Assembly (NCBI GenBank): GCA_020630145.1
Contig: JAHDBX010000003.1
Span: 1 to 16,453, forward strand
Direction: 5' to 3'
DNA from: Gammaproteobacteria bacterium
GTDB taxonomy: Bacteria; Pseudomonadota; Gammaproteobacteria; HTCC5015
DNA: 16,453 nt
Part shown: one piece after another, positions 3,694 through 15,258 of the stretch
How the letters are laid out: every line of letters starts with the position of its first letter
How positions within the stretch are numbered: position 1 is the first letter of the stretch
Notes under the pieces: model-generated
What the model saw: only the letters and a program-made list of their open reading frames with translations
Told to the model about the DNA's origin: nothing
Databases searched by the model: none
Program-made: the position numbers and the translations under genes

Positions 3694-4356
3694 GTGGTGT
3701 TAAATAATAAATTGAGTAAAAAATTAGCGTGGTTAAGTTTTTTGTGTTTTGGACCATTGCATGCAGCTGAGGGTCTAAAGGTAAATATAGATGTTTGGGC
3801 TGATAACTGGTTTGCCTTATATGTGAATGAAGACCTTGTTAAAGAAGATTCTGTATCGATCAACACGGAACGTTCTTTTAATGCGGAATCTTTTCAAACG
3901 GTTTTGCCTTTGCCGGCTACCATTAATATGGTGGTAAAAGATTTTAAAGAAAATGATACCGGCCTCGAGTATATAGGCTCACGCAGGCAACAGATGGGCG
4001 ATGGTGGCTTTATTATGCAAGTGAAGGATGCTCATAGTGGCGATATTGTTGCGGTTAGCGGTAGTCAATGGCGTTGCAAAGCCATTCATATCGCACCATT
4101 AAATAAAAGCTGCGAAAAGTCGAGCAACCCTGCTCAGGATTGCCAAGCTAATATTATTGATGAACCGGCAAATTGGAAGTCAGTTGGTTTTAATCATAAA
4201 GCATGGCCGCAAGCGATAGAGTATTCTGAGTCAGCGGTGAGTCCAAAGATGGGGTATGACCGCATCAATTGGGATTCAAGTGCTAAGTTAATTTGGACAC
4301 AGGATTTAGAAACGGATAATACCTTGCTTTGCAGTTATACAATAAAAGCAGGTTAA
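3694..4356 (+). CDS. Secreted protein of unknown function
   Basis: I do not recognise this family with certainty. The 220-residue product opens with a basic stretch (KLSKK), a hydrophobic core (LAWLSFLCFG) and LHA-AEG, a good signal peptidase I site near residue 24, so it is probably periplasmic or secreted. The mature part is rich in Trp and Asp and carries WADNWFALYVNEDLV (35-49), SFNAESF and a GLEYIG...QMGDGGFIMQV block. Four cysteines remain (C128, C140, C150, C213), enough for two disulfides. The strand-rich pattern and the W(K)SVGFNHKAWPQA motif resemble jelly-roll, galactose-binding-like domains, which is only a guess. Start: two GTG codons in tandem (3694, 3697). AAGGGAG lies 4 nt from the first and 7 nt from the second, so the second may be the real start. 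It interrupts the leftward operon between tsaC and hemF and is transcribed oppositely. Confidence 0.72.
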   Translation: MVLNNKLSKKLAWLSFLCFGPLHAAEGLKVNIDVWADNWFALYVNEDLVKEDSVSINTERSFNAESFQTVLPLPATINMVVKDFKENDTGLEYIGSRRQQMGDGGFIMQVKDAHSGDIVAVSGSQWRCKAIHIAPLNKSCEKSSNPAQDCQANIIDEPANWKSVGFNHKAWPQAIEYSESAVSPKMGYDRINWDSSAKLIWTQDLETDNTLLCSYTIKAG

Positions 4357-11639: not shown

Positions 11640-13021
11640 TGAAAATCATCATTATAGGTGCAGACCATGTAGGTGCATCGATAGCGCGCATTCTAGAAGT
11701 AGAAGAAGGCAATGACATTACGATTGTCGATACTGAAGAGCGTAGAAAAGAACTGGATGATTTACAAAATAGTTTAAATATTAAAACGGTTGTTGGTGAG
11801 GTCTGCTACCCCAATGTACTGACCGAGGCCGGTGCGGATGATGCGGATATGTTAATTGCCTTAACCGCAGTTGATGAAATCAACATGTTAGCATGCCAAA
11901 TAGCCGCAACTATTTTCCATATCCCTACAAAAATTGCGCGCATACGCGCCAATGAATATTTGGCTCATACCGAGCTTTATAATCCTATACACCTACCCAT
12001 AGATGTGATTGTTAGTCCTGAACAAACAGTGACTAAGCATATTAAAAAACTCATTGAATACCCCGGCAGTTTTCAGGTTTTGGACTTTGCTAACGGCAAA
12101 GTAAAGTTAATAGCGATGGAAGTGTATGAGGGTAGCCCGCTTGACGGTCATACCTTGCGTACTTTGAAGCAGCATATTCCTAATGTTAAAGCAAAAGTCG
12201 TTGCTATTTACCGCCAAGATCGAGCAATTTTCCCCACTGGCGATACGGTTATTCAACCCGGTGATGATTTGTTTTTTCTAGCACCTAGCGGTGATATACG
12301 TGAAGTTATGAAGGAAATGCAGCCTGCGTATAAAAAAATGAAGCGTATTGTTATAGCGGGTGGTGGACATATTGGTAAGCGTTTGGCAGAGGCTTTAGAG
12401 GATAAATATCAAGTTAAGCTGATTGAGTATGATAGTAAGCGGGCGCAAAACTTATCTGAAACTTTGCATAACACTGTTGTGTTGCAAGGCGACGTTTCGG
12501 ATCAGGAACTCCTACGCGAAGAGAATATTGATCGCATTGATTTATTCTGTTCTGTGACCAATAACGATGAAGCCAATATTATTTCGACCATGCTGGCAAA
12601 GCGGATGGGTGCAGGTAGAGTGATGGCGATTGTTAATAACCCTGCTTATGCTGATTTAGTGGAAGGCCGTGAAATAGATACGGTGATTTCACCTCAGCAA
12701 ACGACTTTAGGTGCATTACTAACGCATATTCGCAGAGGGGATATTGAAGCGGTTTATTCATTGCGTAAAGGTGCAGCTGAAGCTTTGGAATTAACGGCGC
12801 ATGGCGATAGTAAAACGTCGAAGGTGGTTGGGCAAGCTGTCGATAAACTGCCTTTGCCACCTGGCAGTACAATTGGTGCTGTGGTGCGTGGCGATGAAGT
12901 GTTTGTGCTAGAAAAAGAAGTCATTGTGCAATCGGGTGACCATGTCATTATTTTTGTTTCTGATAAAAAGTATATTTCTCAAGTAGAAGCCTTGTTTCAG
13001 GTTTCGTTTGGGTTCATTTAA
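11639..13021 (+). CDS. trkA: Trk system potassium uptake protein TrkA
   Basis: TrkA is the peripheral, nucleotide-binding gating subunit of the Trk K+ transporter. The 460 residues form two tandem RCK_N/RCK_C units (E. coli 458). The second Rossmann unit has an intact glycine motif, AGGGHIG (240-246). The first reads GADHVG (7-12), with Asp at the second glycine, and the normally small-residue GxAS turn reads GEVC (53-56). NAD(H) binding in the first unit may therefore be altered. Other family blocks are AGADDADMLIALT, CQIAATIFHIPTKIARIR and NNDEANII. The ATG is preceded by an AGGCAAGAG stretch acting as a moderate ribosome-binding site. It lies upstream of trkH with a 10-bp gap, a likely operon. 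Confidence 0.96.
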   Translation: MKIIIIGADHVGASIARILEVEEGNDITIVDTEERRKELDDLQNSLNIKTVVGEVCYPNVLTEAGADDADMLIALTAVDEINMLACQIAATIFHIPTKIARIRANEYLAHTELYNPIHLPIDVIVSPEQTVTKHIKKLIEYPGSFQVLDFANGKVKLIAMEVYEGSPLDGHTLRTLKQHIPNVKAKVVAIYRQDRAIFPTGDTVIQPGDDLFFLAPSGDIREVMKEMQPAYKKMKRIVIAGGGHIGKRLAEALEDKYQVKLIEYDSKRAQNLSETLHNTVVLQGDVSDQELLREENIDRIDLFCSVTNNDEANIISTMLAKRMGAGRVMAIVNNPAYADLVEGREIDTVISPQQTTLGALLTHIRRGDIEAVYSLRKGAAEALELTAHGDSKTSKVVGQAVDKLPLPPGSTIGAVVRGDEVFVLEKEVIVQSGDHVIIFVSDKKYISQVEALFQVSFGFI

Positions 13022-13031
13022 GAGTTTAGCT

Positions 13032-14483
13032 ATGCAATTTCTTACCGTTCAACGTTTGTTTGGCTTACTTTTATTATTGTTTAGCTTGTGCATGTTGGTG
13101 CCTTTGCCGGTTGTATGGATATATGGGGAAAACACAGGTAGTGCTTTTTGGTTAGCGGCTTTTGTTACATCAGCAATGGGTTTTTTATTATGGTTTCCAG
13201 CACGACATAAACGTGCAGAGTTACGTACGCGCGATGGCTTTGTACTTGTCGTCGCATTCTGGGCATTGTTTGGTGTGGTGGGAGCGCTGCCGCTATGGTT
13301 TATGCAAGCACCTTCATTAAGTTTGACAGATGCTATTTTTGAATCTATTTCAGGCCTGTCTACCACGGGTGCAACTATCATCACTGGTCTTGATGATTTG
13401 CCGCGTTCAATTTTATTTTATCGCCAGTTCTTGCAGTGGATCGGTGGTATGGGGATTGTTGTTTTAGCTGTTGCCGTCTTGCCTTTGTTGGGCGTAGGTG
13501 GTATGCAGTTGTATCGAGCTGAAACGCCGGGGCCAATGAAGGACGCGAAGTTAACACCGCGTATAGAAGATACGGCTCGAGCGCTATGGTTTATTTATGT
13601 AAGTTTAACGATTGCCTGTGCATTGTTTTATTGGGCTGCGGGTATGGAATTGTTTGATGCTGTTGGGCACAGTTTTTCAACTATTGCGATTGGTGGCTTT
13701 TCTACGCATGATGCAAGTATAGGTTTCTATGATAATGCGTGGATAGAAGCTATTGCTATTATCTTTATGTTGCTAGCGGGCATGAACTTTAGTTTGCACT
13801 TTATGGCCTTTCGTTCCGCCTCGTTAAAATCGTATAGTTATGATGAAGAGTTACGCTTTTATTTATTCGTTATTATCATCGTCGCTATAATTGTTGTGGC
13901 CTATTTGTTTTGGCATAACATTTATGACACGACTGCTGAAACGCTGCGGCATGGTCTATTTCAAACGGTATCTATTGCGACCACAACGGGCTTTGCTACA
14001 ACTGACTTTAGTATGTGGCCATTCTTATTGCCGGTACTACTTATTTTTACGAGCTTTATTGGTGGTTGTTCAGGTTCGGTCGGTGGCGGTATAAAGGCGG
14101 TGCGTGTTTTGCTACTATTTAAACAGGGTTTTCGTGAGTTAAACCGTTTGGTTCACCCCCGTGCAATGATTACTGTAAAGATAGGTAGAAAGCCTTTGTC
14201 TGGCAGGGTGATAAATGCTGTCTGGGGGTTTTTCTCTGCCTATGTGGGTATATTTGTCATCGTTATGTTGCTGTTATTAGCCTTTGGTCATGATCAAGTC
14301 ACGGCTTTTTCAGCGGTGGCTGCATGCTTAAATAACTTGGGTCCAGGTTTGGGTGAAGTAGCCGCTAATTATTCGAGCCTTGATGATCCTTCGAAATGGG
14401 TATTGTGTTTCGCAATGCTGCTGGGGCGTTTAGAGATTTTTACTTTATTGGTATTGTTTACGCCAGCTTTTTGGAAGGCATAA
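13032..14483 (+). CDS. trkH: Trk potassium transporter membrane subunit TrkH
   Basis: TrkH is the inner-membrane K+-conducting subunit gated by TrkA. It is very hydrophobic, with four M1-P-M2 repeats. The four pore loops are visible as GLSTTGA (108-114), STIAIGGFST (216-225), ATTTGFATT (316-324) and CLNNLGPG (432-439). Each supplies one filter glycine. From ATG 13032 the protein is 483 aa, the E. coli TrkH length. A TTG at 13008 in the same frame would overlap trkA, but ATG lies 10 bp after the trkA stop with AAGAG just before it. The GCSGSVGGGIKAVR segment after the third repeat is typical of the family. A terminator hairpin follows 22 bp after the stop. Confidence 0.96.
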   Translation: MQFLTVQRLFGLLLLLFSLCMLVPLPVVWIYGENTGSAFWLAAFVTSAMGFLLWFPARHKRAELRTRDGFVLVVAFWALFGVVGALPLWFMQAPSLSLTDAIFESISGLSTTGATIITGLDDLPRSILFYRQFLQWIGGMGIVVLAVAVLPLLGVGGMQLYRAETPGPMKDAKLTPRIEDTARALWFIYVSLTIACALFYWAAGMELFDAVGHSFSTIAIGGFSTHDASIGFYDNAWIEAIAIIFMLLAGMNFSLHFMAFRSASLKSYSYDEELRFYLFVIIIVAIIVVAYLFWHNIYDTTAETLRHGLFQTVSIATTTGFATTDFSMWPFLLPVLLIFTSFIGGCSGSVGGGIKAVRVLLLFKQGFRELNRLVHPRAMITVKIGRKPLSGRVINAVWGFFSAYVGIFVIVMLLLLAFGHDQVTAFSAVAACLNNLGPGLGEVAANYSSLDDPSKWVLCFAMLLGRLEIFTLLVLFTPAFWKA

Positions 14484-14504: not shown

Positions 14505-14541
14505 AAAAAGGCCTCTTCAACTTCATGTAAAAGAGGCCTTT
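14505..14541 (-). terminator. Intrinsic terminator between trkH and the small RNA
   Basis: An 11-bp perfect stem, AAAGGCCTCTT (14507-14517) with AAGAGGCCTTT (14531-14541), encloses a 13-nt loop. On the minus strand the stem is followed by TTTTTACTTT (five T from 14509 to 14505), a good Rho-independent signal for the small RNA. On the plus strand only TTT follows, so it may also stop trkH transcripts, less strongly. Confidence 0.85.
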
Positions 14542-14676
14542 CGTAGTACCGTCCTGGCTGTCTTAGGTGATGATGAGCAATGTTCGAATTTATCGAATCA
14601 TCCTGCTCGGTACGCCTAATTCCTTAAGGCGTTGCTTCCTTTCGCGGCATCCTTGCTTAAGTCCTTTTTCGATTGG
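14505..14676 (-). ncRNA. CsrB/RsmY/RsmZ-type CsrA(RsmA)-sequestering small RNA
   Basis: Read on the minus strand this intergenic stretch has six GGA motifs in about 115 nt, at plus-strand positions 14662, 14650, 14637, 14621, 14601 and 14552. Their contexts are AAGGAC, AAGGATG, AAGGAAG, AAGGAAT, CAGGATG and CAGGACG; the last two match the CsrB repeat CAGGA(U/C/A)G exactly. Several GGA lie in predicted loops: GCA-AGGA-TGC, GCG...AAAGGAAGC...CGC, and CGCCT-TAAGGAATT-AGGCG. The RNA ends in a strong intrinsic terminator, and no protein frame covers it. Upstream is a GacA-type palindrome at the expected distance. Such RNAs titrate CsrA/RsmA and so release translation of target mRNAs under control of the GacS/GacA (BarA/UvrY) two-component system. 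The 5' end (about 14676) is inferred from a weak -10. I infer the family from motifs and architecture, not from an alignment. Confidence 0.78.
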
Positions 14677-14682
14677 TAGAAT

Positions 14683-14688
14683 CTCATA
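14683..14688 (-). promoter_or_regulatory. Likely -10 element of the small RNA
   Basis: On the minus strand TATGAG lies about 7 bp upstream of a plausible start near 14676. The facing -35 region (GTAAGT) is poor, as expected for an activator-dependent promoter. An alternative -10 slightly downstream (GATTCT) would shift the start to about 14670. Confidence 0.35.
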
Positions 14689-14725
14689 AAATAAAAAGCT
14701 GAAATACTTACATAGGCGTAATAAT

Positions 14726-14745
14726 TTGTAGGATGTTACCTACAA
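14726..14745. promoter_or_regulatory. GacA/UvrY-type upstream activating palindrome
   Basis: TTGTAGGATGTTACCTACAA is a dyad with perfect 7-bp arms around 6 bp. It follows the TGTAAG-N6-CTTACA form known upstream of rsmX/Y/Z and csrB, with G in place of A at arm position 5 on both sides, so symmetry is kept. Its centre is about 60 bp upstream of the inferred small-RNA start, the position seen for GacA boxes in Pseudomonas. A further half-site, TGTAAG on the minus strand (14707-14712), lies between it and the -10. It could also influence dtd on the other side. Confidence 0.68.
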
Positions 14746-14757
14746 TATGTATACAGC

Positions 14758-14786
14758 TTGTACACATGTTATCCACAGCGCATACT
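14758..14786 (+). promoter_or_regulatory. Candidate dtd promoter containing a DnaA-box match
   Basis: TTGTAC (14758-14763) and CATACT (14781-14786) are 17 bp apart. The spacer holds TTATCCACA (14769-14777), an exact DnaA-box match. An inverted repeat CCACAG-N6-CTGTGG (14773-14790) overlaps the -10. If both are used, a protein bound to the box would block this promoter. The hexamers are only fair, so this is tentative. Confidence 0.3.
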
Positions 14787-14820
14787 GTGGCCTATTAATC
14801 TCACCAAAACAGGCATAGAA

Positions 14821-15258
14821 GTGAATTGTTTGCTACAACGCGTCTTAAATGCAAGGGTCGAAGTATCGGCTAATATTGTTGGTCAAATTGAATCCGGTTT
14901 ATTAGTTTTTGTTGGTATCGAACAACAAGATGACAAGCACATTGTAAAGAAAATGGCGGAGAAAATCATTGCTTATCGACTATTTGCTGACGAAAATCAC
15001 AAAATGAACTTAAATGTACAAGAAGCGCAAGGTGACATCTTACTTGTTTCACAATTTACCTTAGCGGCTAATACCCGTAAGGGGATGCGACCAAGCTTTT
15101 CGACCGCAGCCAAGCCCGAGATTAGTGAGCCATTATTTATGCAACTATCTGAAATGATTACAACTTTATACAAGCCGCCGCAAATGGGCGTGTTTGGTGC
15201 GGATATGCAAGTTAGTTTGTGCAATGATGGGCCAGTGAGCTTTGTATTGAGCTTATAA
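14821..15258 (+). CDS. dtd: D-aminoacyl-tRNA deacylase
   Basis: Dtd hydrolyses D-amino acids (and glycine mischarged on tRNA-Ala) from tRNA, a proofreading step in the cytoplasm. The SQFTLAA motif (77-83), GMRPSFS (88-94) and the Gly-cis-Pro motif in NDGPVSF (GP at 137-138) are all present. I chose GTG at 14821, giving 145 aa, the exact E. coli length, with the family N-terminus xxCLLQRVLNARVEV. An in-frame ATG 63 bp upstream (14758) would add 21 residues lacking homology and would fall in the promoter region. AGG about 9 nt upstream of the GTG serves as a weak ribosome-binding site. It stands alone between the small-RNA promoter region and the his genes. Confidence 0.94.
   Translation: MNCLLQRVLNARVEVSANIVGQIESGLLVFVGIEQQDDKHIVKKMAEKIIAYRLFADENHKMNLNVQEAQGDILLVSQFTLAANTRKGMRPSFSTAAKPEISEPLFMQLSEMITTLYKPPQMGVFGADMQVSLCNDGPVSFVLSL

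Follow-up and report, generated by a model that had tools for sequence, protein, structure and literature searches.

Small RNAs of the Csr/Rsm type diverge fast. In Pseudomonas, RsmX, RsmY and RsmZ (RF00166 and kin) carry GGA hairpins, have a box near −60 and fall in a size class similar to that of the RNA described below; the Pseudomonas box is TGTAAG. A study by Kulkarni and co-workers is said to have predicted CsrA-antagonist RNAs. Zere and others proposed, in the part of the paper available (PMC4682653), that BarA-UvrY drives RNAs of this kind throughout the Gammaproteobacteria. Pf2 and Pf3 of Pseudoalteromonas were found through their GGA motifs, according to the accessible sections of PMC11882849, and the excerpted text of PMC9788540 places rsmZ next to fdxA and names a set of Rfam families among which the Alcanivorax pair does not appear.

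We analysed 16,453 nucleotides of gammaproteobacterial DNA, termed the window below, in which an earlier note had proposed a Gac/Rsm-type small RNA between trkH and dtd. Our results indicate that this gap very likely encodes a UvrY/GacA-activated RNA of the Csr/Rsm type, ~170 nt in length, that antagonises CsrA. What the sequence itself shows is the box, the density of AGGA, the fold and its terminator, and the conservation and position of the locus.

The gap between trkH and dtd

Upstream and downstream of the gap lie trkH (13008..14483, plus strand; Pfam PF02386, 338 bits), which is convergent with the predicted RNA, and the divergent dtd, encoding D-Tyr-tRNA deacylase (14758..15258, plus strand; PF02580, 173 bits). 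In a comparison with relatives, dtd homology begins at 14830, and the real start of the gene is probably further in, near 14815-14830. Elsewhere in the window, an incomplete ORF on the minus strand (1-240) encodes a blue-light sensor domain of the BLUF type (PF04940, 30 bits), and two plus-strand ORFs (2230-2622 and 3694-4356) had no Pfam match at E 0.001.

The perfect activating palindrome that the earlier note had read on the minus strand, TTGTAGG-TAACAT-CCTACAA, is indeed exact (14726..14745), and relatives carry the same box form in the same place. It was the sole match in the window when up to 2 mismatches were allowed (0.04 expected; 8 of 200 shuffles had one). We regard it as a putative upstream box of the UvrY/GacA type, in a variant of the published TGTAAGN6CTTACA. 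A weak candidate −10 element, TATGAG (14688-14683), ~50 bp past the box, and a putative start near 14676, ~60 bp from the box centre in agreement with the earlier note, were recognised by reading the sequence (14676..14690, minus strand). From here the predicted RNA would extend over ~170 nt of the minus strand (14505..14676), as judged from its AGGA motifs, its fold and its relatives.

This stretch displays the enriched, largely unpaired A(N)GGA of Csr/Rsm-type RNAs. The six A/C-AGGA motifs and two exact CsrB repeats counted previously were recovered, and both numbers exceed those of shuffled sequences: [AC]AGGA occurs 6 times in 171 nt against 0.99 expected from dinucleotide shuffles (P 0.0005), and CAGGA[ACT]G twice in the same 171 nt against 0.06 (P 0.002). 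No other stretch of this length in the window, whether on the plus or the minus strand, surpasses its AGGA count. Plain GGA was not significantly enriched in the 171 nt (6 versus 4.2 expected, P 0.18), and the signal thus resides in AGGA; the GGA enrichment is specific to this strand. The RNA folds with a z of −3.43, equalled by 1 of 200 shuffles, and the predicted fold puts most GGA in hairpin or internal loops, in agreement with the hairpin loops of the earlier note. Toward the 3′ end lie a conserved ATCACCT element, TCATCACCTAA (14563..14573, minus strand), which recurs in part of the RNAs compared below and is complementary to the csrA leader, and a predicted GCC-AGGAC-GGT hairpin (14548..14558, minus strand) with GGA in its loop and identical letters in genome G001. 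The strong intrinsic terminator claimed for the locus is seen in the fold as a long GC-rich hairpin followed by T5, with arms spanning 14541-14505 (14505..14541, minus strand), but a simple promoter/terminator scan listed none, nor a sigma-70-like site at the expected place. By the fold, the terminator is that of a free-standing gene.

Covariance searches with Rfam gave no family above the gathering threshold anywhere in the window, and no Csr/Rsm family (CsrB, CsrC, RsmX, RsmY, PrrB_RsmZ) in the gap even at E 10; E. coli csrB, the positive control, scored 380 bits. This is consistent with the expectation of the earlier note that sequence searches would miss an RNA of this kind. A 651-base nucleotide query found no match among plasmids. 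With an RNA model of the locus (R1), no convincing second copy was detected in the source genome (best extra match E 0.1), and G003, a 63% complete genome of the same family, had neither a match to the model nor dtd. A direct DNA search of 75 genomes reached, beyond the source genome, only G001, over 32 bases; the search by pattern proved the productive one.

Box loci and gene order in Gammaproteobacteria

The exact pattern TGTAGGN6CCTACA was present in 63 of 369 gammaproteobacterial genomes. A reversed control pattern occurred in ~37 of the 369 (hand count), so that many TGTAGG sites must be chance occurrences and the palindrome by itself is weak evidence. Besides the window, 73 class-sample loci were taken from the matches listed and judged by a rule that was set after the loci had been inspected: at least 5 A(N)GGA, with no fewer than 2.5 per 100 nt, before an intrinsic terminator is reached. 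Of the 73 TGTAGG loci, 26 passed and 47 failed; of 4000 random positions within the same loci, none passed. A phylum-wide sample, from which at least 3 further listed sites were left out, gave no passing locus among 27 new ones, which again indicates that the exact palindrome alone is insufficient. The box was extended to TGTAGGA-N4-TCCTACA in 20 of the 26 passing loci.

A set of 32 RNAs was assembled from these 26, two loci added by eye (L108, L145), the window and three named loci (L042, L047, L061). The last three were the only ones with an exact box and an RNA among 80 named trkH loci, within the DNA examined; L054 and L078, where dtd lies near trkH in the other orientation, showed no box and no matching RNA. 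Over the 32 RNAs, whose ends were set by hand, GGA was unpaired at a frequency of 0.58, compared with 0.42 for other triplets. Covariation among four alignable relatives was thin, with two-sided change in 1 of 32 pairs. At the gathering threshold, Rfam matched neither the window nor any of the other 31 RNA loci, and it matched none of ten loci with a TGTAAG box. When TGTAAGN6CTTACA was searched in the same 369 genomes, 4 of 50 loci passed the rule, 20 of the 50 having been hand-picked from the listing. The TGTAGG form therefore accompanies more Csr-like RNAs in this sample than the exact textbook TGTAAG form, a comparison limited to exact boxes.

Several other box sites were inspected. In the source genome, site C95 lies inside a 532-codon oxidoreductase ORF and was rejected as an RNA locus. 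Site C10:13539 (L004 1501-1518), a box with 1 mismatch, was likewise rejected; it lies ~20 bp upstream of an ORF for an NADPH-dependent FMN reductase (PF03358, 110 bits) and may be a UvrY target. Several genomes of family f160 contain TGTAGGGCGATCCCTACA or closely similar sequences (L298, L301-L306), and a site of this type in L304 is followed by an ABC-transporter-like ORF (by eye), with no GGA-rich RNA. G001 has a further GGA-rich RNA, longer than the first and preceded by a TGTAGG box of its own (L116, C3 188912); none of pip, dtd, ttcA and typA occurs there in the DNA examined.

The RNAs share a genomic position. One or more of pip, dtd, ttcA and typA were nearby in 23 of the 32 RNA loci, compared with 1 of 45 box loci without RNA, and the sample loci among the 23 span 14 families, that of the window included. 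In 20 of the 23 the RNA is directed away from pip or dtd (strands read by hand), four of these being separated by ~600-760 bp; in the remaining three, which belong to one genus (L106-L108), a partial match resembling pip is found upstream, on the strand of the RNA. Past the 3′ end of the RNA the genes are ttcA, typA, trkH or others. Within the family of the source genome, G002 has trkH-RNA-dtd as in the window and G001 has RNA-pip-dtd, with box half-sites, CATCACCT and GCC unchanged in both. The recurrence in close relatives on which the earlier proposal depended was thus observed: G002 has box, GGA motifs and terminator at the orthologous position, and in G001 they adjoin pip-dtd. The earlier note, to which trkH-dtd was unfamiliar as a locus for this family of RNAs, did not recognise it as one form of an old, conserved pip/dtd-linked position, nor that its box reads TGTAGG where the textbook form reads TGTAAG.

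We also approached the locus from dtd, in 80 genomes other than those known to carry TGTAGG RNAs. The gene was present in 58, and 57 loci were read (G004 was omitted). Within ~2.2 kb upstream of dtd, and directed away from the gene, five more RNAs were found; the boxes of two are mixed (TGTAGG-N6-CTTACA and TGTAAG-N6-CCTACA), and three have no pattern match. A sixth candidate, L336, was judged by eye to be coding sequence. In L354 (G046), the region upstream of dtd contains two successive GGA-rich stretches, each with a terminator, which gives the impression of a tandem duplication of the RNA gene. The gene order suggests that the RNA of the window very probably belongs to an inherited lineage situated head-to-head with (pip-)dtd in many Gammaproteobacteria.

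UvrY, CsrA and the ATCACCT element

The earlier note held that the genome should encode CsrA and UvrY/GacA. A csrA homologue is present (89 bits). In the source assembly, which is 73% complete, uvrY was not found, the best match being MctR-like, and neither was uvrC. The two genes are neighbours in G001, G002 and G003, all of the same family (UvrY matches of 208-239 bits, below the NCBI cut-off of 280). Since uvrC is missing along with uvrY, and the two adjoin in three relatives, a gap in the assembly is the likely reason for the missing uvrY. The source genome also has a response-regulator-like sequence (L162, C210) whose receiver looks degenerate by eye and whose DNA-binding part is UvrY-like.

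The recognition helix of UvrY was compared between genomes with the two box types. Ser occupies one position of this helix (mostly PKT-V/I-STY) in all 24 genomes that combine a TGTAGG box and its RNA with a clear uvrY, while the same position in 8 TGTAAG-type genomes, E. coli included, is Asn in 6, Thr in 1 and Ser in 1 (Fisher 2.4e-6, descent not corrected for). By homology to NarL, we take this residue to touch DNA. Of the seven genomes that make up the TGTAAG group besides E. coli, three satisfy the strict RNA rule (G086 Thr, G222 Ser, G366 Asn); G141 fails it, being without terminator, and the RNAs of G072, G191 and G299 are weaker. The count leaves out G000 (uvrY missing), G161 and G338 (no clear uvrY), a second uvrY-like gene of G129 (Ser), G003 (Ser), G007 (Asn), G219 (Ser) and G250 (Asn), for which no RNA was verified, as well as G244 (Asn), which had entered by error, and G322, whose TGTAAG locus passes the rule. 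A fast-method tree of UvrY, limited to the receiver domain, has 5 changes of box label and 4 of the residue; with only 1 independent pair on starred branches, it does not establish an association of box and residue beyond shared descent. The Ser/Asn difference makes the DNA-reading code of the Gac system testable.

Concerning the conserved element, 13 of the 32 RNAs contain TCACC in the 60 nt on the 5′ side of the terminator (1.6 expected; maximum of 6 in 500 single-base shuffles), where it often takes the form TCAATCACCT followed by GCC-AGGA-GGC or similar. In the source genome the csrA leader contains TTAGGTGATGA, 7 nt ahead of an SD-like CAGGAG and 18 nt ahead of the ATG, which is an 11-nt perfect complement of TCATCACCTAA. 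None of 2000 shuffled csrA leaders reached 11 nt with the element, and 0.15% did so with the whole RNA. As csrA and dtd were examined first as targets, few hypotheses had been tried. That the element pairs with the csrA leader is a lead that we consider clearly less likely than not.

We consider it likely that ATCACCT serves a sponge RNA simply as an anti-Shine-Dalgarno-like or structural motif and that its fit to the csrA leader arose by chance. The element resembles the 3′ end of 16S rRNA, many of the RNAs do not contain it, and complements of 11 nt to a Csr RNA abound across a genome, numbering 165 over both strands in 1.6 Mb of G001; moreover, with the whole RNA the csrA leader (−27.9 kcal/mol) is slightly outdone by those of trkH (−29.1) and tsaC (−28.1). 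This chance reading is opposed by the energy of the element alone, which pairs with the csrA leader at −23.6 kcal/mol, a value not attained by any of 500 shuffled leaders (mean −11.0, sd 2.65) or by the leaders of 14 other window genes, for which runs were at most 6 nt and the best energy −13.1 kcal/mol (starts partly approximate). The pairing idea rests on one genome, as csrA was not found in the 1.6 Mb of G001 examined. In G001, a 13-nt complement of its own element lies between tRNA-Gly and tRNA-Cys and a 16-nt complement elsewhere, in apparent coding sequence (by eye); both are near what chance would give.

A short ORF (ATGAAAAAAAACAGG...) overlaps the csrA start out of frame in the source-genome leader (L001, upstream of 881). 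In L295 (G495), a TGTAGGN6CCTACA box stands directly upstream of csrA (start 1440, minus strand), and this leader contains no complement of the above kind. To our knowledge, the Csr circuit is known only for protein sequestration, and if the pairing with the csrA leader is true, it would add an RNA-RNA arm to the circuit. A broader proposal, which we consider rather improbable, is that the RNA would be a two-way antagonist, its AGGA sites sequestering CsrA and its ATCACCT pairing with the csrA leader just upstream of the ribosome site, lowering both the activity and the synthesis of CsrA, and that Ser or Asn in UvrY, with TGTAGG or TGTAAG boxes, would represent two dialects of Gac DNA reading. 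In Marinomonas mediterranea, the TGTAGG half-box TGTAGGGGAATTCTTACA is reported upstream of csrA1, as in L295, in the available part of PMC8523701.

Proposed function and comparison with known systems

Concerning the function of the RNA, we infer its transcription, its control by UvrY and its binding to CsrA. Phosphorylated UvrY would bind the TGTAGG palindrome ~60 bp upstream and switch on transcription, which would stop at the GC hairpin. The RNA would present its six AGGA sites, most of them in or near loops, to CsrA dimers, and dimers bound in this way would be drawn off their target mRNAs.

The palindrome might instead be an operator of the dtd (or pip-dtd) unit for another regulator, with the GGA-rich hairpin stretch representing the 3′ end region of trkH. 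Such an arrangement would suit a box that ends ~70-85 bp from the probable dtd start, a hairpin downstream of trkH and the many class-sample loci that fail the rule, where the palindrome by itself serves another purpose or is fortuitous; yet a GGA-rich terminated stretch follows the box in 20 loci, away from pip/dtd and whatever gene lies beyond, and with the strand-specific enrichment of GGA this makes an operator very unlikely. A short protein in place of a regulatory RNA has next to no probability, as the 23-codon minus-strand ORF (14616-14687) that overlaps the stretch is set against a gap whose longest ORF is 40 codons and against spacings between conserved blocks that, in G001 and G002, differ in part by non-multiples of three (alignment, by eye).

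Taking the stretch as a Csr/Rsm-type RNA, none of the 32 loci is reached by Rfam models, and the pip-dtd location, the TGTAGG palindrome and the short element provide a handle for finding more. Among the literature matches listed, with subscription journals mostly outside the scope, the locus, the TGTAGG box form and the element were absent from titles and the openings of abstracts.

The RNA resembles CsrB of E. coli and Salmonella (RF00018), which is driven from a UvrY box, contains many A(N)GGA and ends in an intrinsic terminator. It differs in size (~170 nt, compared with 369), in the number of GGA (6, compared with 22) and of CAGGA[ACT]G repeats (two, compared with nine in csrB), and in its neighbours. 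Its TGTAGG box lies ~60 bp from the putative start, whereas the csrB box, TGTGAGAGATCTCTTACA, is centred at −183/−182 according to the portion of PMC4682653 available. From the Pseudomonas Rsm RNAs it is set apart by the lack of an Rfam match, by its TGTAGG box where theirs is TGTAAG, and by its neighbours, rsmZ being placed next to fdxA. It is also like the Csr RNAs of non-model marine Gammaproteobacteria, namely CsrB/CsrC of Marinomonas mediterranea (PMC8523701), Pf1-3 of Pseudoalteromonas (PMC11882849) and CsrR2 of Alcanivorax (PMC9788540), as presented in the accessible parts of these papers, which describe no dtd or pip neighbour for them. In Marinomonas, the accessible text of PMC8523701 places the TGTAGG half-box before csrA1 and not before the RNAs. 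UvrY-driven Csr/Rsm RNAs as such are already known; what appears to be new, among the literature matches listed, is the TGTAGG form of the box, the pip/dtd-linked locus and the conserved element.
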